A DNA stretch of 64,000 bases from Brevibacillus sp. DP1.3A. GTDB lineage: Bacteria; Bacillota; Bacilli; Brevibacillales; Brevibacillaceae. Every line of letters starts with the position of its first letter. Within the stretch, counting starts at the first letter, position 1. Where the stretch lies: NCBI RefSeq assembly GCF_013284245.2, contig NZ_CP085876.1:644501-708500 (forward strand), read 5' to 3'. This document shows positions 31,006-48,228 of this stretch, piece after piece. A program made the position numbers and the translations under genes. The notes beneath the pieces were generated by a model that had not been told where the DNA came from, did no database searches, and saw only the letters and a program-made list of their open reading frames with translations.

Positions 31006-31063
31006 TAATAATGTAGAGACAAAGTCACAAGCGCGCGATTGTGATACGTCTCAAATATATGCA

Positions 31064-31085
31064 ACAGTCACATGGACGTGACTGT
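31064..31085 (+). promoter_or_regulatory. Candidate CsrA-binding hairpin in the hag leader
   Basis: A perfect 8-bp stem (ACAGTCAC with GTGACTGT) presents the loop ATGGAC, which contains GGA, the CsrA recognition core. The second candidate site is the Shine-Dalgarno AAGGAGGA at 31095-31102. This is the same two-site arrangement known for Bacillus subtilis hag. A further 5' hairpin (TCACAA with TTGTGA, 31025-31044) precedes it. Confidence 0.7.
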
Positions 31086-31109
31086 CGACAACTCAAGGAG
31101 GAACTTCAC

Positions 31110-32064: not shown

Positions 32065-32628
32065 ATGAAAATACTATTGAGAGAACAAGAATTGATGATT
32101 GATATATCTAAAATTGAGAATGCGAGTAATGTTCTATCTGTAATTGAATCATTTGTAACAAAAAATAGTTTAGTTTTTTGCGGTCTGAAAATTAATGGAG
32201 AAGAAATATATGATCATTTTGAAAATGTAATAATGAATAACTTAGATAGAATAGATACGATTGAGCCAATTGTAATAACGGAAGATCAATTACGCCATGA
32301 AACGCTAGAATCTGTTCGTGATTACACGGTGAGATCTCTTGTAATACTACCAGCTTTGGTGGAGGAATTTTACTCTGGGGCGCCATCTGAGAACACTTGG
32401 CTTCAACTTGGCCAACTAATCGAGGGACTACAGTGGATTCAAAAAGCATCTGAGTATCTTAATAATAACCTTACATTCACACAAGAATTAGAAACCTTAG
32501 ATCAAGCAATTAGACAGCACGATACGGTTATGATTGGTGACATTATTGAATATGAACTTATTCCACGCTTTGAGGTTATCCAAAAAAATCTCGAAGGTAT
32601 TGTAAGGGATGAGGGATTTAAACGATGA
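32065..32628 (+). CDS. Conserved-context protein of the flagellin-glycosylation island, unknown function
   Basis: This 187-residue acidic, largely helical protein has no signal peptide or membrane segment. It contains a beta-rich N-terminus (MKILLREQELMIDISK...FCGLKINGEEIYDHFE) and a helical C-terminal half with LVILPALVEEFYSG and LGQLIEGLQWIQ. I do not recognise a family. It overlaps the Maf glycosyltransferase gene by 4 bp (ATGA), so a direct partnership is likely: an accessory, chaperone or regulator of the glycosyltransferase. The low GC content is like the rest of the island. Confidence 0.65.
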   Translation: MKILLREQELMIDISKIENASNVLSVIESFVTKNSLVFCGLKINGEEIYDHFENVIMNNLDRIDTIEPIVITEDQLRHETLESVRDYTVRSLVILPALVEEFYSGAPSENTWLQLGQLIEGLQWIQKASEYLNNNLTFTQELETLDQAIRQHDTVMIGDIIEYELIPRFEVIQKNLEGIVRDEGFKR

Positions 32629-34505
32629 TCTTTAAAAATAGTACAGTATTAAAAAGCAACTTTCCAAACTTTTGGGCGGCATATAAGGATTCGCTAATAA
32701 AAAATAGGGAAAATGTAATTTTAGAACAATCGAAAACGAATGAACCAGTAGTTGCCATTTCTAAGGAGTCTGGATTGAATTATATACATAGTAAATATAA
32801 TCCGATTCAAGAAGCAAAAAGATTTATAGAGTCGCTTGAAGATATTGGTGAAAAACATGTTCTATTTTATGGTGTAGGGCTGGGCTATCATATTGACGCA
32901 TTTGTCCAACTGTACCCCAACTCTAAATTTTCTATATATGAGCCTAATATCGAGATATTTCAAGAATTGTTGAGGCATAAAAATCTTGAAATGTGGTCAC
33001 CAGGAAAAAAACTTAAAAGAATAATGGTTGAAGAAAATTCGGTTGATTGTAGAAACAACTTACTCTCTTTTACAAATCTTCTTAGTGAAGAGATTTACTT
33101 AGCCATTTTACCTAGTTATGAACGGATATTTGCCGAAGAAACCAAGAACTTTATGGATACCTTTCGTCAAGTCATTTATGAGAGAAGACAATTGATTAGT
33201 ACTAGTAAACTCTTCGCTAAGAGGAAAGTAATTAATGGTTTTCGTAACCTACCATATGTGGTGAGCAATCCGGATTTCATGGGTGATGATTCAAATATCT
33301 TTAAAGGAAAACCAGCAATCATTGTGTCTGCAGGACCATCGTTAAATGATGAATATGATAGATTAAGATATATAAAGGAAAATGGATTGGCGTATATTTT
33401 TTCAGTAGGTTCAGCTGTAAATGCTCTGCTGAGTCAGGGAATTGAGCCGGATGCGACATTTTCATATGACGGAAGTATTTTAAACCAACAGGTATTTGAT
33501 GACATCGTAAGTCAAGGAATTGATCAAATTCCTCTGATTTTTGGTAGTACGATTGGTTTTGAAACACTAATAGATTATCCAGGAAAAAAGGCGAGTTTAT
33601 TAGTGGAAAAGGATGATATTGTAAATTTATTCGCAAAGAGAAACAATGGAACATCTATGAATCAAATTGGGTATTTTACAAGTGTTGCAACACTTGCACT
33701 AGAAGTGCTTATTAGAAAGGGTTTTTCACCTATTGTCCTTGTAGGTCAAAATTTTGCATACCGCGCAGATCTTAATTATGCAAAGGGAATAGATTATATT
33801 GATGCTGAATTAAGTGATCAACAAAAGGAAAATGCTTTAAAAGTAAGAGATGTAGAGGGAAATCTAACATTAAGTAGTCGTCTGCACATAGATATGAGAA
33901 AAGAAATGGAAGAACTAATTGGTTCTTTCCCGACTGCAAAAATTATTAATAGCAGTAAGGGCGGTGCACACATTGAAGGGACCGTTTATCAGGGATTGGA
34001 ACATATAATTGAAACCAGTTTTACCACAACCAATACTGTCGTACATGATTGGTTTGAACAACTTGAACATGACATTGAGTATGATCAAGAATATTTTAAA
34101 AAGGCTGCTGCAGAGATGTTTAGAAGTGCTGAGGACCTATCTAAGATATTCCGGCGTTTTGAAGATATCTTAACGGAAATGAGACACTATATTACTACAC
34201 GTAATAAGCCACAGCTCGAAAAGCTGTTTAATATGTTTGATAAGATGTTTGATAGACTACAAAAAAATAAATACAATTTAGTAATCATCCAGCCAATGAA
34301 TCCATTGAGTTTTCAATTAGTTATGAAAGTATTCGAAGAGGTAAGGTATAGTAATGATCCAGTTGGTAAAGCCAAGCAGGTAGCAGATGAGTTCGAAGAT
34401 TATTTAAGAGTGTGCAAAGAAGATCTAGAGCTTACTAAAAAACTGTTGGAAGAGATGCGAGATATTGTATTGGAGAAGAGTATTTCAGTGATACAGGAGA
34501 GATAA
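32625..34505 (+). CDS. Motility-associated (Maf) glycosyltransferase, DUF115 family
   Basis: This 626-residue protein is of the motility-associated factor type. The MAF_flag10/DUF115 core is visible at about residues 225-400: GKPAIIVSAGPSLNDEYDRL, AYIFSVGSAVNALL, GIEPDATFSYDG and LVGQNFAYR. The N-terminal region has HVLFYGVGLGYHIDAF, a nucleotide-binding-like Gly-rich loop. Members of this family transfer nonulosonic acids such as legionaminic or pseudaminic acid to Ser/Thr of flagellin in the cytoplasm. Position right after hag and before a legionaminic-acid pathway supports this donor. It is the only evident glycosyltransferase in the island. Confidence 0.88.
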   Translation: MIFKNSTVLKSNFPNFWAAYKDSLIKNRENVILEQSKTNEPVVAISKESGLNYIHSKYNPIQEAKRFIESLEDIGEKHVLFYGVGLGYHIDAFVQLYPNSKFSIYEPNIEIFQELLRHKNLEMWSPGKKLKRIMVEENSVDCRNNLLSFTNLLSEEIYLAILPSYERIFAEETKNFMDTFRQVIYERRQLISTSKLFAKRKVINGFRNLPYVVSNPDFMGDDSNIFKGKPAIIVSAGPSLNDEYDRLRYIKENGLAYIFSVGSAVNALLSQGIEPDATFSYDGSILNQQVFDDIVSQGIDQIPLIFGSTIGFETLIDYPGKKASLLVEKDDIVNLFAKRNNGTSMNQIGYFTSVATLALEVLIRKGFSPIVLVGQNFAYRADLNYAKGIDYIDAELSDQQKENALKVRDVEGNLTLSSRLHIDMRKEMEELIGSFPTAKIINSSKGGAHIEGTVYQGLEHIIETSFTTTNTVVHDWFEQLEHDIEYDQEYFKKAAAEMFRSAEDLSKIFRRFEDILTEMRHYITTRNKPQLEKLFNMFDKMFDRLQKNKYNLVIIQPMNPLSFQLVMKVFEEVRYSNDPVGKAKQVADEFEDYLRVCKEDLELTKKLLEEMRDIVLEKSISVIQER

Positions 34506-34506
34506 G

Positions 34507-35517
34507 ATGAGCCTAAATGGAAAAAAAATATTGGTGACTGGTGCAGATGGATTTATTGGGTCACATCTAGTAGAAGAATTAGTTCGTCAAGGTTACGATG
34601 TTTGCGCATTTGTAAATTACAATTCATTTAATTCTTGGGGATGGTTAGATCACTCTCCACATGAAATTACAAAGGAATTAAACGTTTTTGCAGGTGATGT
34701 TCGAGATCCTTACGGTGTTAAGAAAGCGATGACGGGGTATGATGTTGTACTCCATTTAGCTTCACTTATTGCTATCCCATATTCGTACCATTCACCTGAC
34801 ACATATGTTGATACTAATATCAAGGGTACATTAAATGTTCTTCAAGCAGCTAGAGAACTTAATATTGAAAAAGTGGTTCATACTTCAACTAGTGAAGTCT
34901 ATGGAACAGCTAAGTTCGTACCCATTACAGAAGAGCATCCACTTCAAGGACAGTCACCTTATTCAGCCAGTAAAATTGGTGCAGATCAATTAGCCTTATC
35001 TTTTTATAATTCTTTCAATTTACCAGTTTCAATTATTAGACCATTCAATACCTATGGACCGCGACAATCTGCTCGTGCTGTTATTCCTACAATTATTACC
35101 CAAATTGCAAGTGGAGAAAAAGCAATTAAATTGGGATCAATTCACCCCACTCGTGATTTTAATTATGTGAAAGATACGGTAAATGGATTTATTTCTGTCG
35201 CAAAATCCGACAAATCAATTGGCGAAGTCATTAATATTGGAAGTAACTATGAAATTTCAATAGGTGAGACGGCTAATCTGATAGCAGAATTAATGAGTGA
35301 AAATATCGAAATTCTTACCGAAGACCAACGCTTAAGACCTGAAAAAAGCGAAGTGGAACGCCTGTGGGCGGATAACACAAAAGCAAAAGAATTACTTGGT
35401 TGGTACCCGACCTACGGTGAGCGTGATGGCTTCAAACGGGGACTGAAAGAAACAATTGATTGGTTTACTACATCATCAAATCTGAAAAATTATAAGACAG
35501 GGATGTACAATATATGA
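34507..35517 (+). CDS. legB: NAD-dependent nucleotide-sugar 4,6-dehydratase, LegB type
   Basis: This 336-residue extended SDR enzyme has the NAD-binding motif VTGADGFIGSHL at the N-terminus, the catalytic TSTSEVYG and SPYSASKIGADQ (Tyr-x-x-x-Lys) motifs, and the IRPFNTYGPRQS substrate region. It most resembles LegB, which converts GDP-GlcNAc (or UDP-GlcNAc) to the 4-keto-6-deoxy sugar at the start of legionaminic-acid synthesis. It overlaps the LegC-type aminotransferase gene by 4 bp. Other 4,6-dehydratases share these motifs, so the precise substrate is inferred from neighbours. Confidence 0.85.
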   Translation: MSLNGKKILVTGADGFIGSHLVEELVRQGYDVCAFVNYNSFNSWGWLDHSPHEITKELNVFAGDVRDPYGVKKAMTGYDVVLHLASLIAIPYSYHSPDTYVDTNIKGTLNVLQAARELNIEKVVHTSTSEVYGTAKFVPITEEHPLQGQSPYSASKIGADQLALSFYNSFNLPVSIIRPFNTYGPRQSARAVIPTIITQIASGEKAIKLGSIHPTRDFNYVKDTVNGFISVAKSDKSIGEVINIGSNYEISIGETANLIAELMSENIEILTEDQRLRPEKSEVERLWADNTKAKELLGWYPTYGERDGFKRGLKETIDWFTTSSNLKNYKTGMYNI

Positions 35518-36686
35518 CAACTACATTTCGCATACAGGCCATTTTAGAAGCGTTGCAAAAAGTAACCTCTAAACAGGAAAATTTTGTTCCTCTCCATGAG
35601 CCTTCGTTTCAGGGGAATGAGTGGTTATATGTGAAAGAGTGCATTGATACTGGATGGGTCTCCTCAGTTGGAAAGTATGTGAATAAGTTTGAAGAGATGC
35701 TAGCAGATTATACGGGGGTAAAACATGCAATAGCAGTAGTAAATGGAACAGCTGCAGTACATGTTTGTCTTAAACTTGCTGGTGTGGAAGCGAATGATGA
35801 GGTACTTGTGCCTGCATTAACATTTATCGCCAGTGCTAATGCTATCTCTTATTGCGGAGCTATTCCTCATTTTGTGGACAGCAGTTATGAAACACTAGGA
35901 CTTGATCCGGTGAAGTTGGATCATTATCTAATGGAAATCAGTGTACAACGCAAAGACGGATGCTATAACAAGATCACAGGAAGAAGAATAAAGGCAGTAC
36001 TTCCTATGCATACTTTTGGCCACCCAGTTGATATGGACGCTTTGTTAGAAATTTGCGATCGCTATAAGATAGAACTTGTTGAAGATGCCGCTGAATCACT
36101 CGGTTCTTATTATAAAGGGCGACACACGGGCAATTGGGGCAAATTGGCTGCTGTTAGTTTTAACGGAAACAAAGTAGTTACAACAGGTGGAGGGGGAGCC
36201 ATTCTCACTAATAATGATGAATTAGGGAAGATGGCGAAACATATCACTACAACAGCGAAAAAACCACACCCATGGGCGTTTGATCACGATCACATAGGCT
36301 TTAATTATAGAATGCCGAATTTGAATGCTGCTTTAGGTTGTGCTCAACTTGAGATGTTATCCAAATTTATAGAACAAAAGCGTACTTTAGCAAACATGTA
36401 TGCTAATGCTTTTCTTCGGGTAGATGGCGTTAAGCTGTTTATGGAGCCTTCTTTTGCAAAAAGCAATTATTGGCTACAAGTTCTTATATTAGAAGAACAA
36501 TTTGCTTCTGAAAAAGAGAAATTACTTAAAGCAGCGAATGAGACGGGTTTCATGACTAGACCAGTTTGGAAGCCGCTTCATGAGATTTCGATGTATCAAA
36601 ATTGCCCCAAGATGAACTTAGATGTAGTTGAAAGTTTAGCTAGAAGAATTATTAATATTCCAAGTAGCCCAGGTTTAGTTAGATAA
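35514..36686 (+). CDS. legC: PLP-dependent aminotransferase, LegC type
   Basis: This 390-residue DegT/DnrJ/EryC1-family enzyme has FQGNEWLYVKECIDTGWVSS near the start, VNGTAAVHVCLKLAG, LPMHTFGHPVDMD, VEDAAESLGS, and the PLP lysine in VSFNGNKVVTTGGGG. It should aminate C4 of the 4-keto sugar made by the LegB-type enzyme. The substrate tail (FMTRPVWKPLHEI) fits the LegC subgroup. The start codon overlaps legB (ATGA). A non-coding gap of 114 bp follows. Confidence 0.88.
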   Translation: MTTTFRIQAILEALQKVTSKQENFVPLHEPSFQGNEWLYVKECIDTGWVSSVGKYVNKFEEMLADYTGVKHAIAVVNGTAAVHVCLKLAGVEANDEVLVPALTFIASANAISYCGAIPHFVDSSYETLGLDPVKLDHYLMEISVQRKDGCYNKITGRRIKAVLPMHTFGHPVDMDALLEICDRYKIELVEDAAESLGSYYKGRHTGNWGKLAAVSFNGNKVVTTGGGGAILTNNDELGKMAKHITTTAKKPHPWAFDHDHIGFNYRMPNLNAALGCAQLEMLSKFIEQKRTLANMYANAFLRVDGVKLFMEPSFAKSNYWLQVLILEEQFASEKEKLLKAANETGFMTRPVWKPLHEISMYQNCPKMNLDVVESLARRIINIPSSPGLVR

Positions 36687-36800
36687 GGATGATGAGGCGG
36701 AGTTACAGGCATTAGTGGAACTCTGCAAATGTGATACCCCTTTACGAGAAACTAGCGATTGACCAAATTGTTATATTAGTAATCTTGTTTGGAGGTATAT

Positions 36801-37481
36801 ATGAAGAAAATATCTATACATCAGAGCCAGTATATACCATGGGCACCGTACTTTAAAAAAATTGCAATGTCTGATGTTTTCGTTGTGATGGATAGTGTTC
36901 AATACCAAAAAAATGGTGTGCAAAATCGGAATAGAATAAGAGATAAAAACAGTGACTATTGGTTAACGATACCAATTACAGGGAATTTAACAGACGTAAT
37001 TTCTGAAAAGAGATTAGCGTCGGATAGATGGATGATGAAGCATTGGAAATCCATTCAAAGCGCATATCGCTCAGCACCAAAGTGGGAATTATATGCTGAT
37101 AAAATAGAGTTCCTTTATCAACAAAGTTATTCTACCTTATTTGAAGCAAATCAAGCTTTTTTTATTTTTTTGATGGATAGTTTGAAAATTAATACTCAGG
37201 TTGTCTTTTTATCAGAGCTTCAGGTTACTGGAGAGAAGTCGGACTTAGTTCTTAATATTTGTAAGGATCTGTGTGCAACGGAGTACATCAGTGGATACGG
37301 TTCGAAAAGCTACCTTAATGAAAATAAATTTATCGAATCTGGTGTTGAAATAAATTATCTTGAGTCAATATCTCCTGTTTACCCACAAGTCCAAGGAGAA
37401 TTTATTTCTGGATTGTCTATGATTGATATGCTACTAAATTCGCCTGAAGATTTAATTCAGGAGTACCTGTATTCTAATTAA
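36801..37481 (+). CDS. WbqC-like family protein
   Basis: This 226-residue protein starts at the ATG at 36801, 5 bp after GGAGG. It begins ISIHQSQYIPWAPYFKKIA, the hallmark of the WbqC family (conserved His-Gln-x-x-Tyr-x-Pro near the N-terminus), followed by VQYQKNGVQNRNRIR and YWLTIPI. The family occurs in O-antigen and surface-glycan loci; its biochemical role is not settled and it is often suggested to take part in sugar modification. Context suggests a part in building the flagellin glycan. Confidence 0.85.
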   Translation: MKKISIHQSQYIPWAPYFKKIAMSDVFVVMDSVQYQKNGVQNRNRIRDKNSDYWLTIPITGNLTDVISEKRLASDRWMMKHWKSIQSAYRSAPKWELYADKIEFLYQQSYSTLFEANQAFFIFLMDSLKINTQVVFLSELQVTGEKSDLVLNICKDLCATEYISGYGSKSYLNENKFIESGVEINYLESISPVYPQVQGEFISGLSMIDMLLNSPEDLIQEYLYSN

Positions 37482-37499
37482 AGATAGGGAGCGAAAGAA

Positions 37500-38162
37500 A
37501 TGGATGCTAGAGAGACAAATGTGAAATTGTGGGACGACATCTATAGTTCTTCAAGCAATGGAATGACTTATCCTAATGATATTTTGGTTAGAGTTTCACA
37601 TAGACTTTTAAATAATGAGAAACACAAGAAAGTATTAGATTATGGTTTTGGTGGAGGAGCCGATTTTATACACTTTTGCAAGAAAGGCTTCCAAGTATCT
37701 GGAGTAGAGATTAGTGAGAGTGCCATCGAAAAATTAACAAATAGATTGGAATCCATGGGGATCACTCCTGATCTAAAGTTATTAACGGACGGGAGAATTC
37801 CTTTTCCAGATAATTCATTCGATGTAGTTGTTGCTTGGCAAGTTTTATACTATAACGACTGGTCTGGTTTTTACGCTGCTATGAAAGAAATTAATAGGGT
37901 GCTTCGTAGTGGCGGAATATTTCTTGGAACGATGGGTGCGATAGGCGACTTTTCACATACCTATAGTCGTTCTTTGGGTAACAATTTATATGAATCTACT
38001 GTACCCGGTCAAGAAGGAGCAATCGTCATAATAGTAGATAAAGACGATCTCTCAAAATGCTTCCCTAATGAAAAGTTGACTATCGGTGAATTCGGATATG
38101 ATTTCGGCCAGTATCATGGTAAACATTGGATTGTGAGTTACGAAAAAGGTGCAGATCTATGA
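37500..38162 (+). CDS. Class I SAM-dependent methyltransferase
   Basis: This 220-residue protein has the SAM-binding motif VLDYGFGGGADFIHFC (motif I), GVEISESAIEKL (motif II) and FDVVVAWQVLYY (motif IV), all in the expected order of a Methyltransf_11-type fold. No membrane segment. It overlaps the next gene (a LegG-type epimerase) by 4 bp (ATGA). A likely task is O- or N-methylation of the nonulosonic-acid glycan, giving a modified legionaminic acid; the substrate is inferred only. Confidence 0.8.
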   Translation: MDARETNVKLWDDIYSSSSNGMTYPNDILVRVSHRLLNNEKHKKVLDYGFGGGADFIHFCKKGFQVSGVEISESAIEKLTNRLESMGITPDLKLLTDGRIPFPDNSFDVVVAWQVLYYNDWSGFYAAMKEINRVLRSGGIFLGTMGAIGDFSHTYSRSLGNNLYESTVPGQEGAIVIIVDKDDLSKCFPNEKLTIGEFGYDFGQYHGKHWIVSYEKGADL

Positions 38163-39331
38163 GTGGTAATAAAAAAATAAATATCCTTGCTCTTACTGGG
38201 ATTAGGTCTGAATATGACCTTTTGTATCCATTATTAAAAGGAATTGATAGTCATCCGGACTTCGATCTAGGTGTAATAGTTTCTGGTGCTCATTTGTCTC
38301 CTTTGCATGATTATTCAGTTCGACAGATAGATAAAGATGAATTTCGAGTAGTGGATCACATTGAAAACTTGCTGTACGCGGATTCATTTTCAAGTAAAGC
38401 AAAGTCTTCTGCCATATTAATGCAATCACTTGCACAGACTTTATTGCGTGTACAACCTGACTTATTGTTAATCCTTGGTGACCGAGAAGAAGCAATCATC
38501 GGATCTTTAACGGCGTCCTACATGAATATACCTGCAGTGCATATAGCTGGTGGTGATAACACAAGTCCAAACGGTGGGGATGTCGATGAACAAATTAGGC
38601 ATGCAACAACAAAACTAAGCCATGTTCATTTGACCATGATGGAAGAACATTCGGAGCGCATCAAAAAGCTCGGGGAAGAGTCTTGGCGGGTTTTTACTGT
38701 AGGCAGCCCAGGTATCGATCGCTTGCGGATGGAACCATCCCTAAGTGTGGAGGAGATAGCTAACCTTTTAGGAGAAGGTGTTAAAAAGGATTATATTGTG
38801 CTTATATATCATCCTTTGAGTTCAACGGTAGCCCAAGCTGCAGAAGAATTAAGATTATGCATTGAACAATGTATACAAACAGGCTTACACATTTTTATTG
38901 GGTCTCCAAACAGTGATCCTGGATACCAAGATATTGTACAAGTTTTGCAAGAGTATGCTCACCATCCTCAAGTATGTTTATATAAGAATTTAGCGCGTAA
39001 TATATTTGTAAATTTACTAAGAAATGCAAGATGCTTGGTTGGGAATTCTTCTTTGGCAATCCATGAGGCTCCGTATCTATGTTTACCATCAGTAAACGTC
39101 GGAGAGCGTCAAAAAGGAAGAATTGCTGGAAAGAACGTTCAATTTGTACCTGCTAATGAGGAGGATGTAAGAGGTGCGCTGCAAAAAGCACTCTACGACG
39201 TAGATTATAGAAATGAACTCGATAACGAGCAGTTTATATATGGTGATGGGTTTATGGTCGATAAAACATTGCAAATCTTGTTGTCACTTCCGTCTCGTGA
39301 AAAACTACTTGCGAAAAAAATAACCTATTAA
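38159..39331 (+). CDS. legG: Hydrolysing NDP-sugar 2-epimerase, LegG/NeuC type
   Basis: It encodes 390 residues from the ATG at 38159, which overlaps the methyltransferase stop. Family motifs: TGIRSEYDLLYPLL (start of the GT-B fold), GDREEAIIGSL, IAGGDNTSPNGGDVDEQIRHATTKLSH and YHPLSST. It releases the nucleotide and inverts C2, yielding 2,4-diacetamido-2,4,6-trideoxymannose for the LegI-type synthase. NeuC (UDP-GlcNAc) is the alternative; neighbours favour LegG. Confidence 0.85.
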   Translation: MSGNKKINILALTGIRSEYDLLYPLLKGIDSHPDFDLGVIVSGAHLSPLHDYSVRQIDKDEFRVVDHIENLLYADSFSSKAKSSAILMQSLAQTLLRVQPDLLLILGDREEAIIGSLTASYMNIPAVHIAGGDNTSPNGGDVDEQIRHATTKLSHVHLTMMEEHSERIKKLGEESWRVFTVGSPGIDRLRMEPSLSVEEIANLLGEGVKKDYIVLIYHPLSSTVAQAAEELRLCIEQCIQTGLHIFIGSPNSDPGYQDIVQVLQEYAHHPQVCLYKNLARNIFVNLLRNARCLVGNSSLAIHEAPYLCLPSVNVGERQKGRIAGKNVQFVPANEEDVRGALQKALYDVDYRNELDNEQFIYGDGFMVDKTLQILLSLPSREKLLAKKITY

Positions 39332-39353
39332 AGGAAAGAGGGGATAAGTGATT

Positions 39354-40022
39354 ATGAAAAAAGTGCTAGTTATTGCTCCTCATCCAGACGATGAAACGCT
39401 TGGTTGTGGGGGGACGTTGCTCAAACACATTGCTAATGAAGATGAAGTAAGTTGGCTCATTGTTACGGGAATGCACAGTAATCTTGGCCACACCGATGAG
39501 CAGATAGATCGGAGAGAGCGAGAAATAGAAAAAGTTAAAACAATGTACGGATTTAACAATGTATTTAACCTTAAGCTCCCTACGACTAATCTCGATACAA
39601 TCCCTATGCAGAGCATCGTCGCTCAGATTGGAACTGTAATAAATCAATTAGAACCGGAAATTATGTACTTACCTTATCGAGGAGATGTTCATACAGATCA
39701 TAAAGTAGTGTTTGATGCGGTAGTTTCATGCAGCAAATGGTTTCGATACAGTTCAGTAAAAAAGGTACTTGCTTATGAAACTTTGTCAGAGACTGACTTT
39801 GGTATTAATCCGGATAATAACGGGTTTCGACCTAACGTGTTTAGCGATATTACGCCGTATCTAGAGAAAAAGCTGGATATACTAAATGTTTTTCAGAGCG
39901 AAATGGGGGAGTTCCCTTTCCCACGGAGTAACCAGGCGGTACAGGCGCAAGCGAGGGTTCGGGGAGTAGCCGCAGGTTGCGAATCTGCAGAGGCATTTAT
40001 GTTGCTTAAGGAGATATTGTGA
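39354..40022 (+). CDS. PIG-L family deacetylase
   Basis: This 222-residue protein starts at the ATG at 39354 (a GTG 6 bp upstream is possible). The zinc site of the PIG-L/LmbE family is clear: APHPDDETLGCGG (His, Asp, Asp) and the second His region YRGDVHTDHKVVFDA. It removes an N-acetyl group from a GlcNAc-containing substrate. Such a deacetylase in a nonulosonic locus suggests that the C5 or C7 acetamido group is re-acylated with another group. It overlaps the following synthase gene by 4 bp. Confidence 0.85.
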   Translation: MKKVLVIAPHPDDETLGCGGTLLKHIANEDEVSWLIVTGMHSNLGHTDEQIDRREREIEKVKTMYGFNNVFNLKLPTTNLDTIPMQSIVAQIGTVINQLEPEIMYLPYRGDVHTDHKVVFDAVVSCSKWFRYSSVKKVLAYETLSETDFGINPDNNGFRPNVFSDITPYLEKKLDILNVFQSEMGEFPFPRSNQAVQAQARVRGVAAGCESAEAFMLLKEIL

Positions 40023-41098
40023 AAATGAACGCATACATCATTGCAGAAGCAGGAGTTAATCACAATGGTTCGTTAGAGTTGGCAGTTGAGTTAGTTAATG
40101 TTGCTTCCGCTGCAGGTGCAGACGCAGTGAAATTCCAAACCTTTAGAGCAGAAAATTTGGTGAGCAAATCTGCAAGAAAGGCAGATTATCAAAGGATTAA
40201 TACTGGTAATTCGGAATCCCAATTTGAGATGCTGAAAAAATTGGAATTGAGTCATCAAGAGCATCAAGTTTTAGTACAGCATTGTTTGGCAAAAAAAATA
40301 CAGTTTCTTTCGACCCCGTTTGATCATGTAAGCTCTGAATTTCTAATTAAAGAACTTGATGTACCAGTTATCAAAATATCTTCGGGAGATTTGACAAACG
40401 CTCCCCTCCTACTTCATGTCGCTCAATCAGGAAAACCAATTATTCTTTCAACGGGCATGAGTACGCTTGGTGAAATTGAATCCGCTTTAAGTGTATTAGC
40501 CTATGGGTACACTAGTTCCGTTGCTCCTGGTTCCATTAGTGAGTTCGATCTGGCCTACTTCACTGAGCAGGGTCAACAAATGTTGCAAAAAAATGTTACG
40601 TTGCTCCATTGCACAACAGAATATCCAACTCCTTTTTGTGATGTGAATCTTAAGGCTATGGATACCCTGAAAAATGCTTTTCACCTTAGAGTAGGATTAT
40701 CAGATCATACCAATGGCATTTCTGTTGCAATCGCTGCAGCAGCCAGAGGAGCAAGTGTAATTGAAAAGCATTTTACTCTAGATAAAGAATTTCCAGGTCC
40801 TGATCACAAGGCTTCGTTAAATCCAACAGAACTCTGTGCGTTGGTAAAGTCTATCCGCGAGGTGGAAGACGCATTAGGATCGGTAACTAAGATTCCTACG
40901 AGTTCGGAACGAAAAAACAAAGAAGTGGCCCAAAAAAGTCTTGTTGCAGCGCGAAATATAACAGCGGGAGAAATATTCACTGTTGAAAATTTAACCGTGA
41001 AACGTCCAGCAGGAGGAATATCTCCAATGCAATACTGGTCTTGGCTAGGAAAAAAAGCTGTCCGCTCTTATCAAGAGGACGAGATGATCAGAGAATGA
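40019..41098 (+). CDS. legI: Nonulosonic acid synthase, LegI/NeuB type
   Basis: This 359-residue enzyme starts at GTG (40019), 5 nt after AAGGAG; an ATG at 40025 is in frame. NeuB TIM-barrel motifs: IIAEAGVNHNGSLE, DAVKFQTFRAENL, KISSGDLTNAPLL, LSTGMSTLGEIE, LHCTTEYPTPF and GLSDHTNGI. The C-terminal SAF (antifreeze-like) domain is present from about residue 295. It condenses phosphoenolpyruvate with the 6-deoxy-diacetamido-mannose to form legionaminic acid. It overlaps the next gene by 4 bp. Which nonulosonic acid is made cannot be told from sequence alone, but LegB/LegC neighbours favour legionaminic acid. Confidence 0.9.
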   Translation: MKMNAYIIAEAGVNHNGSLELAVELVNVASAAGADAVKFQTFRAENLVSKSARKADYQRINTGNSESQFEMLKKLELSHQEHQVLVQHCLAKKIQFLSTPFDHVSSEFLIKELDVPVIKISSGDLTNAPLLLHVAQSGKPIILSTGMSTLGEIESALSVLAYGYTSSVAPGSISEFDLAYFTEQGQQMLQKNVTLLHCTTEYPTPFCDVNLKAMDTLKNAFHLRVGLSDHTNGISVAIAAAARGASVIEKHFTLDKEFPGPDHKASLNPTELCALVKSIREVEDALGSVTKIPTSSERKNKEVAQKSLVAARNITAGEIFTVENLTVKRPAGGISPMQYWSWLGKKAVRSYQEDEMIRE

Positions 41099-41727
41099 AA
41101 CTGCCAATTATCGTATTAGGTGGAGGAGGGCATTCGAAAGTGCTTATGAATACCCTCCTAATGACGAGCTTTGATGTTAAGGGATTTACAACGCCCGATT
41201 CAGAAGATCAAATGAAAATTATTTTTGGAGTAAAAAGATTGGGTACGGATGATATCATTCGAAGCTTTGACCCTACTCAATATAAATTGGTTAATGGAAT
41301 TGGTTCAATAGGATCACCGGGTATTCGAAAAGAACTCTTCTATTCTTTTAAAAATAATGGATATCAGTTTGAAAATGTCATCCATCCGTCTGCGATTCTA
41401 TCTAAAGATACGAGGCTACTAGAAGGGGTACAGGTAATGGCAGGTGTGATTATACAGCCAGGATGTATCGTCGGAGCTAACACGATTATTAATACAAGGG
41501 CTACGATTGAACACGATTGCCTTATAGGTGACAACGTTCATATATCTCCAGGGGCTATCATCTGTGGTGATGTAATTATAGGCGATAACGTACATGTCGG
41601 TGCAGGTGCTACGGTAATACAAGGTATACGTATCGGAAAGAACAGTATCATAGGTGCTGGTTCTGTAGTAACACGAAACGTTACAGAGGGTGTAAAAGTT
41701 GTTGGAGTTCCTGCAAAGGAGGTTTAG
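41095..41727 (+). CDS. legH: Sugar acetyltransferase, LegH/PglD type
   Basis: It encodes 210 residues from the ATG at 41095 overlapping the synthase stop. The N-terminal PglD-type domain begins IIVLGGGGHSKVL. From about residue 95 there are left-handed beta-helix hexapeptide repeats (IQPGCIVGANTIINTRA, IGDNVHVGAGATV), ending in the usual IIGAGSVVTRNV and VVGVPAK. It should N-acetylate the 4-amino group of the intermediate, or acylate the deacetylated position. Confidence 0.87.
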   Translation: MKLPIIVLGGGGHSKVLMNTLLMTSFDVKGFTTPDSEDQMKIIFGVKRLGTDDIIRSFDPTQYKLVNGIGSIGSPGIRKELFYSFKNNGYQFENVIHPSAILSKDTRLLEGVQVMAGVIIQPGCIVGANTIINTRATIEHDCLIGDNVHISPGAIICGDVIIGDNVHVGAGATVIQGIRIGKNSIIGAGSVVTRNVTEGVKVVGVPAKEV

Positions 41728-41729
41728 CC

Positions 41730-42779
41730 ATGTTAAATTGGGAAAAAATATTAGTTGCTCCTTCCACAGAAATTTTAAGGGCGCTTGAAATCATAGACTC
41801 AGGAGCAAAACAAATCGGAATTGTTGTAGATGATAATCGACGACTTCTAGGGACAATTACAGATGGTGATATTCGTAGGGGGCTGTTAAAAGGTAAAACA
41901 TTAAACGATCCAATTGAAAGTGTAATGAATCCATTCCCAATCGTGGCTTCTATTTATGATTCAAAAGAAAATATTCTGCAACTAATGAAATTTAAACAGT
42001 TACGGGCAATCCCCGTTCTTGACGAAGATGGCAGTGTCATTCAGGTTGAGACATTGGAAGAGTTAATGCAGCCGGAAAAGCGTGATAATATTGTCGTTTT
42101 AATGGCTGGAGGACTGGGTTCAAGGCTTAGACCTCTCACCGATGATTGTCCAAAGCCATTGTTAAAAGTGGGAGAACGGCCAGTTTTAGAAACGATCCTC
42201 ATGAATTTTATTGAATATGGATTCTATCACTTTTATATTTCTGTAAATTATAAGGCGGAGATGATTCGAGATTATTTTGGGGATGGCTCTCGCTGGGGGG
42301 TTCAAATTTCATACATCGAAGAAAATAAGAGATTAGGTACAGCAGGGGCGCTAAGTTTACTTCCTCTTCGCCCAACTAAACCTTTTTTTGTCATTAACGG
42401 TGACCTCTTAACGAAAATTAATTTTGAACAACTATTAGATTTTCATAATTCTTATCAATCGATAGGAACCATGTGTGTCCGGGAATTTAGCCAGCAAGTT
42501 CCATATGGTGTTGCTCTATTGGATCGGCAAAAGCTTATAGGTATTGAGGAAAAACCAATTCAGAAGTACTTTGTTAACGCGGGAATTTATCTATTAGATC
42601 CTACCACTTTAAACTATATTCCAAATAATGAATTCTATGATATGCCTACGTTATTTGATTGCTTAATTAAACAAAAATTATATACAACTGCTTTTCCAAT
42701 ACGAGAATATTGGCTGGACATTGGCCGATTATCTGACTTTGAACGAGCCAATATGGAATTTGCGGAGGTATTTGGATGA
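41730..42779 (+). CDS. ptmE: CBS-domain nucleotidyltransferase, PtmE type
   Basis: This 349-residue protein is a fusion: two CBS repeats (residues 1-115) followed by a GlmU/RmlA-type nucleotidyltransferase with VVLMAGGLGSRLRPLTDDCPK-like signature loop, FFVINGDLL (metal-binding Asp) and FVNAGIYLL. This layout is that of PtmE, the GlcN-1-phosphate guanylyltransferase that opens the GDP-linked legionaminic pathway in Campylobacter. Its presence suggests GDP rather than UDP intermediates here. CBS domains may bind adenosyl ligands for regulation. It overlaps the CMP-transferase gene by 4 bp. Confidence 0.86.
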   Translation: MLNWEKILVAPSTEILRALEIIDSGAKQIGIVVDDNRRLLGTITDGDIRRGLLKGKTLNDPIESVMNPFPIVASIYDSKENILQLMKFKQLRAIPVLDEDGSVIQVETLEELMQPEKRDNIVVLMAGGLGSRLRPLTDDCPKPLLKVGERPVLETILMNFIEYGFYHFYISVNYKAEMIRDYFGDGSRWGVQISYIEENKRLGTAGALSLLPLRPTKPFFVINGDLLTKINFEQLLDFHNSYQSIGTMCVREFSQQVPYGVALLDRQKLIGIEEKPIQKYFVNAGIYLLDPTTLNYIPNNEFYDMPTLFDCLIKQKLYTTAFPIREYWLDIGRLSDFERANMEFAEVFG

Positions 42780-43480
42780 TAGACAATAAAACTGTGCTGG
42801 CGATTATTCCTGCGCGCGGTGGATCGAAAGGAGTTCCGCGGAAGAACATTCGTGAATTGGCTGGAAAGCCTCTAATTGCTTGGACTATTGAAGCTGCGAA
42901 GAAGTCTAAGCATATAGATCGCTTAGTTGTTTCGACAGATGATGAGGAAATAGCAGAAGTAGCAAGGAAGTGGGGATGTGAAGTTCCCTTTATTCGTCCA
43001 TCTGCACTTGCTCAAGATGATACACCAGGTATTGACCCTATCCTCCACGCAATGGAGTTGTTGCCCGGCTTTGATTATATTGTATTGCTTCAACCTACGT
43101 CGCCGTTAAGGAATACAGATGATATCGATAGCTGTTTAGAGAAGTGTATAAATGAGAAGGCAAATGCGTGTGTATCCGTTACAGTGACTGACAAATCGCC
43201 ATTCTGGATGTATCAACTATCAGAAGAGGCTATGTTAGAACCAGTAATTGACTCGAAACAGCCAGTTTTGAGGAGACAGGATGCTCCAGATGTATATGTA
43301 TTAAACGGAGCAGTATATGTCGCATCGGCCAATTGGTTATACGGAACCCGATCTTTCTTGCAAAGTGAAACAATTGGTTTTGTAATGCCTAAAGAGCGCT
43401 CATACGATTTGGACACTCCTTTAGACTTTTTGATTATTGAAACAATATTGAAAAACGACATGCAAATTCAAAATAGCTAA
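42776..43480 (+). CDS. legF: CMP-nonulosonic acid cytidylyltransferase, LegF/NeuA type
   Basis: This 234-residue enzyme has the CMP-sugar synthetase motif AIIPARGGSKGVPRKNIREL, then VVSTDDEEIAEVA and LLQPTSPLRN. It should activate legionaminic acid with CTP to the CMP form used by the Maf transferase. It completes the pathway: PtmE, LegB, LegC, LegH, LegG, LegI and LegF are all represented between 34.5 and 43.5 kb. The tail FVMPKERSYDLDTPLDF is typical for this subgroup. Confidence 0.92.
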   Translation: MIDNKTVLAIIPARGGSKGVPRKNIRELAGKPLIAWTIEAAKKSKHIDRLVVSTDDEEIAEVARKWGCEVPFIRPSALAQDDTPGIDPILHAMELLPGFDYIVLLQPTSPLRNTDDIDSCLEKCINEKANACVSVTVTDKSPFWMYQLSEEAMLEPVIDSKQPVLRRQDAPDVYVLNGAVYVASANWLYGTRSFLQSETIGFVMPKERSYDLDTPLDFLIIETILKNDMQIQNS

Positions 43481-43498: not shown

Positions 43499-45562
43499 AT
43501 GAAGCAAGAGATTAAAAGCTTAATCGGATACCTAAAAACACTAAATCGTAAAATCGAAGAATTATTACACCGTAGTCGCTTGGAAGAAGCCAAAGAAATG
43601 ATAGATGAATATGCTAAATACCTAAGAGATGCTGATTATTATTCTTTTTTAGCGTCATATAAATTGCAAATAGGTGAATTTAACGATGCACTCCAAATAT
43701 TAATAGAAGGTATTGGAAAGCATCCATTTCATTATGAAATGAATTATAACCTTGGAATTATTTATGAGACTAAAGAAGCGATAAAAAGCCTGAAGTATTA
43801 TACGTATGCTTGTAAATATGCTAGGGGACAAGAAGAGAAAGACAAAGCACTAGATAATATTCAAAGAGTCTCAGGGATGCTCTTAACAAATTCTAAAACT
43901 AATAACGAACAGATACATAGTGAGATTAAGCGTTGCCGAGATATTTTAAACGAGAAGGATGGGAGGGCGTTCCCACTTGATCAAAATGGCAAAAGTTTAA
44001 TAAGAAGCATTTTGCATGCAGGCACTGATGAAGAGTTATTGGTTAATATGTACAAATCTTTTAAAGTAACGGATGTTGATAATAGCACTGCGATGTATTT
44101 CAAGACAGAATTGTTCAAAGGAAAGAATAATCAAGGGGAGATAGATTTTAATCTAAAGAATCCTGCTATAGTTCCGATTTCCTTGATTGAACCATTTACA
44201 AAAGTCGATGTAACCGTCAACAATGAAAAATTCCAATTTGAAGAGGAACACTTTGTATACAACAGATACCACTATCTTAAATTGGACGAAGGGAACGTGA
44301 AGATTAAAACAAATAAAAATATCTTTGTGGGGAATCCCATTGAAGTTGCGGAGCAACCTAAACATCCAAAATTAGTACTAAAGATATTCATTGATGGATT
44401 AGCATTCAAGTTTTTAGAACAAAAAGGCATGGATCATCTCATGCCGAACACAAATAAATTCTTCAGGGATGGATTTATATCTACAAATTGCTATGCGACT
44501 AGCGAGTGGACTTTACCAAGTAAGGCTAGTATCAATACAGGCAAATATGCGACTAATCATAAGCTACTGCATCCAACATACAATTTTGCTTTCGAAAAAT
44601 TCAATGAGCTGTTACCAGGTTATTTAAAGAAAGCGGGCTATTTTACAACTAAAATATGTACGAACTGGAGAACTACCCCTTCATTTGGATACTATAAGGG
44701 TTTTGACCGAATCGTGTATCAAAACTTTTGTGGGGGCATGGATTGTGGAGAAGTCATAGCGGAAGCGATAGAGCATTTGGCGGCTTTTGAGAAGCATAAT
44801 AACTACGTGTCCATTTCACTTATGGATCTGCATAATGTACCTGATGAAATTGAAGATACGTTATATGGTCAAACGAATACAGATCTTAGGTATCGTATAG
44901 ATACCAAGAATAAAGGAGAAACATCTGTCTTAACAAAATACGATGAAAATAAAATTATTAAATACTATCAAGAAATCAAAAGAGTCGATGTGTTTCTTGG
45001 TACGCTATTTGATTATATTAGTAATAAATATACAAATGATGAAATTTTAGTGGTATTGCACTCGGATCACGGACAAACATTTTTAGAGAATGAGAAAGAG
45101 CAAGAGAGTAACATCTTACATGACAGTCGCCGGAAAATACCATTGATGATAAAAGGAAACCATGTTCCCAATTTGATGTCGGATGAAATTATGGAGGCAG
45201 TAGATATTTTACCGATCATTCTGGAGCTATGTGGAATTGAAATTCCCAAGCATATAGACGGCAAGTTACCGACGTCTTTTGGAGGGGAATCCAAAAGACA
45301 GTTTGCTATTACCCAAGTGCTCCATCCAAATCAGTCCTACAAGGCAGCTATTTCCGACGATTTACATTTATTTTATTTCGAAACAAAAGATAACGTAGGG
45401 GACGACTTGTCCATTAATGTTGAGAATTTCACAGTGGTTCTCATTAATAAAGAGACCCAAAATGACGATACAATATTATACGCAGAAAAAGTAAATCAAT
45501 ATGAGCAAGTCGTATTTGAACTAATAAAAGATTTTATCAGATGGGATAAAGAAGCTAATTAG
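43499..45562 (+). CDS. TPR-like/alkaline-phosphatase-superfamily (sulfatase-like) protein with Thr in the nucleophile position
   Basis: This 687-residue protein has two parts. Residues 1-130 form TPR-like helical repeats (LHRSRLEEAKEMIDEY, LASYKLQIGEFNDALQIL, NYNLGIIYETKEAIKSL). From about residue 290 there is a sulfatase-like domain. Metal-binding candidates are Asp299 in KIFIDGLAF and Asp523-His524 in VLHSDHGQTFLE. The nucleophile loop reads TLPSKASINTGKY, the same pattern as the sulfatase C-x-P-S-R-A-S-x-x-T-G, but with Thr338 in the Cys position. A Thr there is typical of phospho-transferring members such as phosphoglycerol or phosphoethanolamine transferases, not sulfatases. It has no signal peptide or membrane helix, so it appears cytoplasmic, unlike most transferases of this superfamily. 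Context suggests it adds or removes a phospho-substituent on the flagellin glycan. Confidence 0.75.
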   Translation: MKQEIKSLIGYLKTLNRKIEELLHRSRLEEAKEMIDEYAKYLRDADYYSFLASYKLQIGEFNDALQILIEGIGKHPFHYEMNYNLGIIYETKEAIKSLKYYTYACKYARGQEEKDKALDNIQRVSGMLLTNSKTNNEQIHSEIKRCRDILNEKDGRAFPLDQNGKSLIRSILHAGTDEELLVNMYKSFKVTDVDNSTAMYFKTELFKGKNNQGEIDFNLKNPAIVPISLIEPFTKVDVTVNNEKFQFEEEHFVYNRYHYLKLDEGNVKIKTNKNIFVGNPIEVAEQPKHPKLVLKIFIDGLAFKFLEQKGMDHLMPNTNKFFRDGFISTNCYATSEWTLPSKASINTGKYATNHKLLHPTYNFAFEKFNELLPGYLKKAGYFTTKICTNWRTTPSFGYYKGFDRIVYQNFCGGMDCGEVIAEAIEHLAAFEKHNNYVSISLMDLHNVPDEIEDTLYGQTNTDLRYRIDTKNKGETSVLTKYDENKIIKYYQEIKRVDVFLGTLFDYISNKYTNDEILVVLHSDHGQTFLENEKEQESNILHDSRRKIPLMIKGNHVPNLMSDEIMEAVDILPIILELCGIEIPKHIDGKLPTSFGGESKRQFAITQVLHPNQSYKAAISDDLHLFYFETKDNVGDDLSINVENFTVVLINKETQNDDTILYAEKVNQYEQVVFELIKDFIRWDKEAN

Positions 45563-45581: not shown

Positions 45582-46268
45582 ATGCCGAACACAAAAAAGG
45601 TAGATTTGCTCAACGAAGAGGCAAATTTGGAATATTGGGATGAATATTATAAGAAGGCAGCGATGCAAGAAGAGTCAACTTTTTGTAAATATGTAAAAAA
45701 ACAAATAGACAAAAATGCAATCGTATTGGACATTGGCTGTGGTTCTGGAAGAGATACATTTTCTTTTGCTAAAGATGGCTATGAAGCTGTTGGGATTGAT
45801 AGGTCTAAAGAGGTAATTAAAATTAATAGAAATACAAAAGAAGAAAAGTTCTCCACTTCGAAACTGGATTTTCATGTAGTTGATCTCAGTGATGAGAGAA
45901 CATTAAATGACATAATAGAATCGATAAGCCGTAAAGCTATCTCGGAAGATAAAAATCTCGTTGTATATCTTAGATTCCTATTACATTCGATAAATGAAAC
46001 AACAGAGGAAATACTACTAAGAACTATATCGAAACATGTACCGAAAGGTTGTTATTTTGCTGCAGAATTTAGAACGATAGAAGATTATGGTCGGGACAAA
46101 GTATATGATGACCACTATCGAAGATTTATTGATGCTGAGGATCTCGTTAGTAATTTAGAAAGTAAGTATAATTTTTCTAAAATTGATTTCATTAAAGGAA
46201 CCGGATTGTCAGTTTATAAAAATGAAGACCCATATCTTGCGAGAATTCTTATGAAAAAAAGTAAGTGA
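45582..46268 (+). CDS. Class I SAM-dependent methyltransferase
   Basis: This 228-residue protein has motif I VLDIGCGSGRDTFSFA, motif II VGIDRSKEVIKIN and motif-IV-like LVVYLRFLLHSI. It is the last gene of the island, 19 bp after the TPR/phosphatase-superfamily gene, so it probably belongs to the same operon. A second methyltransferase (37500) is unrelated at the level of its motifs, suggesting two different methylations. The substrate is unknown. Confidence 0.8.
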   Translation: MPNTKKVDLLNEEANLEYWDEYYKKAAMQEESTFCKYVKKQIDKNAIVLDIGCGSGRDTFSFAKDGYEAVGIDRSKEVIKINRNTKEEKFSTSKLDFHVVDLSDERTLNDIIESISRKAISEDKNLVVYLRFLLHSINETTEEILLRTISKHVPKGCYFAAEFRTIEDYGRDKVYDDHYRRFIDAEDLVSNLESKYNFSKIDFIKGTGLSVYKNEDPYLARILMKKSK

Positions 46269-46716: not shown

Positions 46717-48228
46717 ATGGGAATCCGCTTAACAGGTATGGCTTCAGGGATGGACACTGAGAAAATGATTAAAGATTTGATGAAAGCACAACGACAACCA
46801 GTAAATCGGCTGGAAAAAAGTAAGATTTCAACCGAGTGGAAAAGAGACGCGTATCGTGAGATGAATACGCTTTTGGCTGATCTTCAAAAGACAGTCAATG
46901 ACATACGTTATTCGGCTAATTTTAATAAAAAGGTTGCCTCTTCAGAAAATGATGCGATTGCTTCTGCAAAAGTAACGGGCACGCCAAAATTGTCATCATA
47001 TTCTATTGAAGTACAAAAGTTAGCAAAGTCAGAAATGCCTGCTTCGATGCAGTTTGATATTGCAGCATCTATTACTAGTTCAAAACAACAGTTAGGTGCT
47101 TCCTTTGAATTTGCAATTGATGGTGACACAGCCAACACGATCAAAGTTGAAGCAACGGACACGATCGATAGTGTTATTGCCAAAATCAATGGCTCTGGTA
47201 AGGGCGTGGAAGCATTTCATATAGACAACAAACTTGTCATTAAATCTATCAATGGTAATAATCTCGGTGGAGATAACCAATTCGATATTAAAGTTCAAGG
47301 TGGCGGAGATGGTAGCGTTTTAGGTATGACGGCAGCGGCAACTTCTAATCCATCCTCTACTCGAGTAGCAGGTGAAGATGCAGTTGTCGTAATTAACGGT
47401 GTAAAGCAGACATCTAAATCCAACGTATTTAAGTATGATGGAGTGGAGTTTACTGTTAAGACTATCAATACGGGTAATCCACTAACAATCAACTCAAAAA
47501 CTGATGAAGAGGCTGTTTTTAATTCTATTAAAGGGTTTGTAGAAAAGTACAATAATGTCATTGAGACAATTAATAAGAAAATAGCTGAGCCAAAGTACAA
47601 AGGATATCAGCCTTTACTGGATGAAGAGAAAGAAGCTCTCGGCGATAAAACAGCAGAGAAAATGGATAAAATGGCGAAGAGCGGAATTTTGATTCGCGAT
47701 TCGTATTTAACTAACGCTCTGAATGAAATGCGTCGCTCGGTTAGCGCTCCTCTAACAGGTACAGGAGTAAATTCTGCATTTGATACGCTTTCTGAAATAG
47801 GTATCGGAGGTCCTCCAACAGGTAAGGCAGCTTATCAAGAAAATGGAAAGCTATATCTAAATGAAGAAAAGTTACGGAATGCGATTAACAGTAATGGCGC
47901 AGATGTTGTAAAACTTTTCACCAGTTTCAGTTCTAGTACAGATACTGGTACAAAGTACAACGAAAGCGGGATTGCAGAGAGACTTTATAGTAACTTGAGC
48001 AAAGCTATGTCAGATATTACTAAGCAAGCAGGAAGCGGAACTGTTGTAAATGACGACAGTTATCTCAGCAAAAAAATCGGTCAATTCGCAGATGACATCA
48101 ATTCTTGGGAAGATCGTTTGAAAATAATTGAGAATCGCTATTATAAACAATTCGCTGCTATGGAAACAGCAATGTCCAAAGCCCAATCCCAGGGTTCATG
48201 GTTTGCACAAATGTTAGGGCAGAAATAA
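46717..48228 (+). CDS. fliD: Flagellar filament cap protein FliD
   Basis: This 503-residue hook-associated protein 2 begins IRLTGMASGMDTEKMIKDLM, the FliD N-terminal signature, and contains VNRLEKSKISTEWKRDAYR. The C-terminal FliD_C part includes LFTSFSSSTDTGTKYNESGI and ends DRLKIIENRYYKQFAAMETA with the tail helix. Length fits the family. It caps the growing filament and folds flagellin monomers. Confidence 0.95.
   Translation: MGIRLTGMASGMDTEKMIKDLMKAQRQPVNRLEKSKISTEWKRDAYREMNTLLADLQKTVNDIRYSANFNKKVASSENDAIASAKVTGTPKLSSYSIEVQKLAKSEMPASMQFDIAASITSSKQQLGASFEFAIDGDTANTIKVEATDTIDSVIAKINGSGKGVEAFHIDNKLVIKSINGNNLGGDNQFDIKVQGGGDGSVLGMTAAATSNPSSTRVAGEDAVVVINGVKQTSKSNVFKYDGVEFTVKTINTGNPLTINSKTDEEAVFNSIKGFVEKYNNVIETINKKIAEPKYKGYQPLLDEEKEALGDKTAEKMDKMAKSGILIRDSYLTNALNEMRRSVSAPLTGTGVNSAFDTLSEIGIGGPPTGKAAYQENGKLYLNEEKLRNAINSNGADVVKLFTSFSSSTDTGTKYNESGIAERLYSNLSKAMSDITKQAGSGTVVNDDSYLSKKIGQFADDINSWEDRLKIIENRYYKQFAAMETAMSKAQSQGSWFAQMLGQK

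Follow-up and report, generated by a model that had tools for sequence, protein, structure and literature searches.

Flagellin sugars do bear phosphorus groups: passages of PMC8861647 report 2-aminoethylphosphonate (2-AEP), found by mass spectrometry and of open origin, on the type A flagellin glycan of C. difficile, which came out negative for pepM there, and passages of PMC4441256 describe a methylated threonine that is phosphate-linked in the same glycan. In Campylobacter, cj1415-cj1418 are required for methyl phosphoramidate and cj1421/cj1422 are the transferases, according to part of PMC3907429. Bacteria also activate phosphonates as cytidine monophosphate (CMP) esters for their surfaces, and the abstract of PMC6697681 calls the later steps enigmatic. 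Here we describe a testable transferase candidate for the steps after CMP-phosphonate activation, the family of a gene that we name SULF, found in the flagellar island of a 64,000-nucleotide stretch of the Brevibacillus sp. DP1.3A genome (NZ_CP085876.1, positions 644,501 to 708,500; hereafter the window). SULF probably acts in the cytosol, transferring nucleotide-activated phosphorus groups, predicted to be of the phosphonate, phosphoramidate or phosphate-ester type, to the nonulosonic-acid sugar of flagellin by way of residue Thr338; for the SULF family as a whole we hold a transferase role with rather more confidence. Attachment of a phosphorus group is predicted because most of the relatives examined adjoin genes apparently for building, activating or methylating such groups. 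Phosphorus on flagellin sugars being already known, the novelty lies in a family of candidate enzymes, with its cassettes and fold.

The C. difficile type A glycan (CD0240-CD0244) bears on its flagellin sugar a methylated group joined through phosphate, as we propose for SULF, although its sugar is N-acetylglucosamine (GlcNAc) and the setting of SULF is nonulosonate. The Campylobacter genes resemble the set beside SULF at the Prochlorococcus locus L028, a methyl phosphoramidate-like set comprising a phosphoenolpyruvate (PEP)-utilising kinase, an amidotransferase, a nucleotidyltransferase (NTP_transf_3) and an adenosine 5'-phosphosulfate (APS)-kinase-like gene; the enzyme steps of cj1415-cj1418 presumably correspond to this make-up. 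Methyl phosphoramidate is nevertheless placed on the capsule in Campylobacter, whereas the setting of SULF is flagellin, and no Campylobacter name appears among the named SULF homologue matches. Seven SULF loci, with a PEP mutase and nucleotidyltransferase domains, resemble the PntC pathways, yet passages of PMC6697681 name LicD-like transferases, and no sulfatase, as neighbours. Our search, covering part of the literature, returned no paper in which a sulfatase-like gene is named as a phosphonate, phosphoramidate or flagellin-glycan transferase; the word 'sulfatase' is missing from the main text of PMC6697681, PMC3907429, PMC8861647, PMC9765702, PMC13317340 and PMC5109656, and the sulphatase passages of PMC8743553 concern a sulphatase-maturating enzyme.

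We compared 23 distinct SULF loci, made up of 20 relatives from genome contigs, two found by surveying 398 genomes of the Bacilli class (SULF threshold E 1e-40) and the window; duplicates, near copies and weak partial matches (L001-L010, L036-L039) were dropped, and L042, the 95% ortholog of the window's gene, stands outside the set. Neighbours were typed by marker scans of the 23 loci and by Pfam and NCBIfam assignments on representatives. One of six kinds of gene set adjoins SULF in 22 loci, and in 20 the marker match starts at most 210 bases 3' on the same strand, the exceptions being L022, whose set lies 5' of SULF and partly on the opposite strand, L023 and L029. Sets for phosphonate synthesis and nucleotidyl activation occur at seven loci (L013, L018, L019, L020, L022, L040 and L041), all with PEP mutase, phosphonopyruvate decarboxylase and nucleotidyltransferase-type domains, to which L018, L019, L022 and L041 add a nucleotidyltransferase-2-AEP-transaminase and a methyltransferase, and L013, L020 and L040 an iron alcohol dehydrogenase. 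Besides the L028 set, a choline-kinase-family gene accompanies a nucleotidyltransferase (NTP_transf_3) at L025, and a nucleotidyltransferase-aminotransferase fusion is present at L027. An APS-kinase-like gene is found at four loci. What follows it is the S-adenosylmethionine-dependent methyltransferase MT2, or a fusion of it, at L021, L024 and L026, and a nucleotidyltransferase-methyltransferase at L030; at eight (L011, L012, L014-L017, L029 and the window) MT2 stands alone. These sets support the proposal of phospho-transfer over sulfate chemistry made in the first-pass annotation of the window. That annotation had left open whether a phospho-group is attached or removed; attachment is now favoured and removal disfavoured, since the neighbouring genes appear suited to the building and activation of groups.

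The PEP mutases of all seven phosphonate loci carry EDKxxxxxNS, given as the PEP mutase motif in part of PMC6697681. All seven genomes exceed the TIGR02320 (PEP mutase) cut-off of 319.55 bits (392 for L018), as does one of 11 other genomes scored, that of L011, on another contig; the remaining ten fall below it, three with weaker matches (138, 134 and 70 bits). The L011 PEP mutase lies at G406:C21:4420-5235 in a 313-residue frame, and the SULF locus of that genome has only MT2. The L013 phosphonopyruvate decarboxylase scores 468 bits on TIGR03297 (cut-off 312.5) and the L018 2-AEP transaminase 404 bits on TIGR03301 (cut-off 360.8). A 612-residue L018 protein aligns over 610 residues (E 9e-194) with the nucleotidyltransferase/aminotransferase of PDB 6pd1, which we take to be the CMP-AEP-forming PntC of PMC6697681. 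Flagellin glycans bearing phosphonate would be predicted for Domibacillus robiginosus, two Saccharibacillus, Paenibacillus nanensis and Viridibacillus soli. For the L028 amidotransferase, the best NCBIfam match is gamma-glutamyl-CDP-amidate hydrolase (104.8 bits, below the cut-off of 250), and one source gives the name glutamine kinase to 10 of the 120 relatives listed for the L028 kinase. A second phosphoramidate-like locus is likely to exist, since P0103, a SULF relative (58% to that of L028), and P0167, a kinase relative (62%), both list the same longest contig of 28,718 bases.

Three gene arrangements at other loci may be recorded here. At L025:7523-11266, a 1247-residue protein near the choline-kinase-family and nucleotidyltransferase genes has its sulfatase-type part at the C-terminus, after a long N-terminal part. 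SULF at L027:9221-13111 precedes a fusion of a nucleotidyltransferase with a class I/II aminotransferase, perhaps pointing to another phospho-amine donor, with flagellar hook-associated genes beyond. L024:12514-14127 is an MT2 fusion whose leading part resembles LicD-type proteins by eye and has no Pfam match.

Because glycan islands are hotspots of exchange, the presence of donor genes beside SULF might be a matter of chance; passages of PMC5109656 indeed show island types that differ between strains. As a control we took one 5.7-19 kb stretch from each of 53 Maf-bearing genomes without SULF (a Maf-type match occurs in 57 of the 398 genomes) and scanned it with the same markers at E 1e-6. Maf was seen by tblastn in 49 stretches, and four show no marker whatever. 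None of the 53 held PEP mutase, decarboxylase, 2-AEP transaminase, iron alcohol dehydrogenase, an APS-kinase-like gene, choline kinase, or an L028-type kinase or amidotransferase. Two gave weak MT2-type matches (24 and 27% identity) and one, L095, a good nucleotidyltransferase match (30% identity to that of L013, E 1e-22), possibly another donor route; 12 short weak nucleotidyltransferase matches (E 2e-8 to 8e-7) are of the kind that the window's own sugar nucleotidyltransferase also gives. Phosphonate sets (7/23 SULF loci against 0/53 controls) and any set (22/23 against 1/53) give Fisher p values of 1e-4 and 7e-17, which ignore the relatedness of the genomes and are favoured by a marker set taken from the SULF loci, although PEP mutase and its partners are independently known families. 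Together with the same-strand adjacency and the recurrence of the link in Clostridia and a Prochlorococcus, this contrast makes hitch-hiking a most improbable explanation.

Within the survey, SULF is present in four of the 398 genomes, namely the window's, one ortholog and two others. MT2 (E 1e-20, at most seven candidates scored per genome) was found in two of the 398, both with SULF, and the remaining two genomes with SULF have phosphonate sets. Flagellar or nonulosonate genes lie within the fetched stretch in 20 of the 23 loci, in keeping with the flagellin-glycan setting assumed earlier. A wide occurrence of the gene outside glycan loci with another role, which would have counted against the first-pass reading, was not seen in the genomes and loci examined, the three loci without such a marker being L026, L028 and L029.

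The ORF reported for SULF is genuine, having an ATG start with GGAGAGG just 5' of it. Its features, in window positions, are as follows.

43499..45562, + strand: SULF, 687 residues, with TPR, beta and sulfatase-type domains
43508..43948, + strand: TPR-like helices, residues 4-150, from a profile match to consensus TPR proteins and the structural model
43961..44359, + strand: beta-sandwich domain, residues ~155-287, no assigned family
44366..45538, + strand: sulfatase / alkaline-phosphatase-superfamily domain, residues ~290-680
44393..44395, + strand: Asp299 codon, predicted metal ligand; Asp in 140 of 143 family rows (three gaps)
44510..44512, + strand: Thr338 codon, predicted nucleophile; Thr in 141 of 143 rows (one Ser, one gap)
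44669..44671, + strand: Arg391 codon, in the family-specific N-W-R motif; Arg in 137 of 143 rows
45065..45070, + strand: Asp523-His524 codons (S-D-H-G-Q), predicted metal ligands; each in 142 of 143 rows

The Pfam Sulfatase model (PF00884) matches residues 293-580 (E 4.5e-20; 72.6 bits, cut-off 25), and the predicted structure (mean predicted local distance difference test 91, predicted template modelling score 0.92) places eight helices at residues 4-150. Pfam alone stays below threshold for this helical part (TPR_16, E 0.057). A 30-row profile finds consensus TPR proteins of designed sequence (E 1e-22 to 4e-6 over the whole chain) and the TPR of O-GlcNAc transferase (E 2e-6), with single repeats weak (best 0.038 in the top chain); together with the helices, these matches bear out the TPR-like repeats of the first-pass annotation. 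The lack of a membrane helix that it noted also holds, and the protein looks soluble, the highest 19-residue hydropathy mean being 1.73, at residues 564-582 within the enzyme domain.

Thr338 lies in the motif S-E-W-T338-L-P-S-K-A-S-I-N-T-G-K-Y and aligns with Ser83 of the S-T-P-S-R motif of a solved sulfatase (PDB 7sno), which together with its conservation predicts a place at the metal site. The Thr proposed in place of the sulfatase Cys or Ser is therefore on the nucleophile position; as a striking feature it loses weight, because 27 of 30 more distant relatives also have Thr there (the other three Cys). Thr characterises the W-T-x-P-S clade of sulfatase-like proteins as a whole and does not set SULF apart. 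Asp299, Asp523 and His524 are present as the suggested candidate metal ligands. The second metal-motif position, which we take to be that of the second Asp of the sulfatase Asp-Asp metal pair, is Gly in 134, Ala in six and a gap in three of the 143 rows. Residues specific to the family include E336 (132 rows), W337 (140), R391 (given above; His, Trp and others in the 30 distant relatives), Q526 (129) and Y614 (137).

By sequence and fold SULF is best matched by hydrolases that share the sulfatase-type domain, among them S1 sulfatases as well as phosphonate monoester hydrolases (PDB 7lha, 2w8s, 4upk). On a rival reading it would thus be a cytosolic phosphodiesterase, phosphatase or sulfatase-like enzyme, trimming or editing a modified nonulosonate or the nucleotide donor of that sugar. 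SULF differs from the matched hydrolases in having Thr where their Cys or Ser is converted to formylglycine, in Gly at the position of the second Asp and in added N-terminal TPR and beta domains, and its neighbours look suited to making donors and not to consuming groups. Moreover, the L018 genes from SULF to the 2-AEP transaminase include no other candidate transferase, and we consider a hydrolase unlikely. Thr at the superfamily nucleophile position is, judging from alignment, shared with enzymes of the LtaS / phosphoethanolamine-transferase (EptA) type (PDB 2w5q). Those enzymes are membrane proteins that face outward and use lipid donors; SULF shows no N-terminal membrane helices, its N-terminus is TPR-like, and the donors proposed for it are soluble nucleotides. 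If the transferase reading is true, a sulfatase fold has been converted to a cytosolic transferase with soluble donors.

Double displacement is the standard mechanism in the sulfatase/alkaline-phosphatase superfamily. In SULF, Asp299, Asp523 and His524 would hold a metal, and Thr338 would attack the phosphorus of a CMP/CDP-type donor, releasing the nucleotide and leaving the group bound to Thr. The group may then pass to a sugar hydroxyl, either on the Maf-attached glycan or on the CMP-sugar before Maf acts, while the TPR part might dock flagellin, Maf or the donor-making enzymes. MT2 is predicted to methylate the group after transfer.

The APS-kinase-like neighbours raise the alternative that SULF is a sulfotransferase, bringing sulfate to the glycan from 3'-phosphoadenosine 5'-phosphosulfate, made by that kinase or, in genomes with MT2 only, by the housekeeping APS kinase. 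The L021 kinase does pass the true APS-kinase model (apsK, TIGR00455; 171 against 138.7 bits) and a Sat-type ATP sulfurylase is encoded in its genome, as in those of L028 and the window; the window's genome further has an APS kinase next to an ATP-sulfurylase frame, and the ATP-sulfurylase test is thus not decisive for the window. Three of the four genomes with the kinase beside SULF (L024, L026 and L030), in contrast, gave no Sat-type or CysD-type ATP sulfurylase match, so that APS would be missing in them. By their titles L024 and L030 come from isolates, and L026 is a metagenome bin, completeness not being given for these genomes; in at least two isolates, therefore, the likely substrate of the kinase is some other nucleotide-activated group. 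The MT2-only genome of L011 likewise has no Sat-type match (CysD not searched there), the L028 kinase is under the apsK cut-off (85 against 138.7 bits), and ten other loci carry phosphorus or nucleotidyl sets. The sulfate explanation is weakened by the ATP-sulfurylase search, and we regard it as highly unlikely. Besides an intact copy, APS-kinase pieces occur in two short frames of the window's genome (G000:C1:4821951-4822258), possibly a decayed second gene.

A SULF tree was built from 22 rows, L029 being left out (short contig, SULF frame looks broken). Phosphonate and MT2 loci interleave in it: the phosphonate locus L040 lies inside a 100/100 clade with L014, L015 and L016 (MT2), and L013 (phosphonate) is sister of L012 (MT2) with support 100/98. 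We read close SULF relatives with differing neighbour sets as exchange of donor cassettes, and the interleaving means that the group transferred in the window cannot be read from its phosphonate cousins. The MT2 label requires three changes (0/500 shuffles as low) and all labels jointly eight (shuffled mean 12.5; 0/200 as low).

It is conceivable that MT2-type members, including that of the window, have turned to a different function, such as transferring a phospho-amino acid that is later N-methylated, as in the C. difficile type A glycan; the phosphonate sets beside other members would then tell little about these ones. MT2 is the sole neighbour kind at eight loci, and passages of PMC4441256 and PMC8861647 show that the phosphate-linked threonine on flagellin GlcNAc depends on the CD0243 methyltransferase for its methyl. 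Such a role would still be phospho-transfer, and besides the interleaving just described, E-W-T and S-D-H-G-Q are identical in the MT2 and phosphonate kinds, the exceptions, D-W-T (L021) and S-D-H-G-D (L028), lying outside both. We think it improbable.

Several observations weigh against transfer of phosphorus groups to flagellin sugars by SULF. The case is one of genomic association and fold; the nearest matches are the hydrolases above, the L021 kinase passes the true APS-kinase model, and the control contrast gains from the origin of the markers. No flagellar or nonulosonate marker accompanies L026, L028 or L029 (the latter two cut or short contigs), and L023, with 243 bases of left flank, shows none of the neighbour markers. 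Clustering of the phosphonate label in the tree is no better than chance (five changes, of which starred branches force four; as low in 105/500 shuffles). Profile matches of MT2 are generic, and in the window it is the only gene alongside SULF, with no activating enzyme. The window's genome shows no PEP mutase, none of its three PF13714 matches carrying the motif, and no L028-type kinase, with two weak partial matches; it has 11 NTP_transf_3 matches, two of them in the island's CBS-nucleotidyltransferase and CMP-sugar synthase. Set against these points, the fuller proposal, that SULF is the missing flagellin phosphonyl/phosphoramidyl transferase, supplied with CMP-/CDP-activated donors by exchangeable cassettes, and that Brevibacillus places an undescribed methylated phosphorus group, seems to us evenly balanced between right and wrong. 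It covers a cytosolic TPR-sulfatase-fold type with a Thr relay, placing phosphonates, phosphoramidates and phospho-alcohols onto sialic-acid-like flagellin sugars before export.

The window belongs to a 6.66 Mb Brevibacillus-like genome, and the top SULF homologue (95% identity) is that of B. brevis NBRC 100599. The island runs FlgN, FlgK, FlgL, DUF6470, FliW, flagellin, a 187-residue ORF, Maf and the legionaminate-type nonulosonate pathway, ending with CMP-sugar synthase, SULF, MT2 and FliD. The genes around SULF are as follows.

31041..31934, + strand: flagellin (Pfam), predicted final acceptor protein
32625..34505, + strand: Maf-type flagellin glycosyltransferase (Pfam MptE-like, E 8.9e-33)
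34507..43480, + strand: nonulosonate (legionaminate-type) pathway
45582..46268, + strand: MT2 (Pfam methyltransferase), 20 bases 3' of SULF
46717..48228, + strand: FliD filament cap (Pfam), end of the flagellar setting

The Maf_flag10_N match on the window's Maf (E 1.4e-4) is slightly short of the cut-off. The pathway genes encode dehydratase, LegC, WbqC, methyltransferase, NeuC, PIG-L, NeuB, NeuD, CBS-nucleotidyltransferase and CMP-sugar synthase. The WbqC-like gene, the second methyltransferase (MT1) and the PIG-L deacetylase are interspersed in it (36789-38162 and 39348-40022), and of these three the cluster comparison found only the WbqC-like gene in common, with L012. GlfM is an abbreviation for glycosylation factor for Maf in passages of PMC13317340. 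The 187-residue ORF (32065-32628), directly before Maf and without a Pfam match, may be a Maf helper, and its relatives also precede Maf in L013, L014, L015 and L016.

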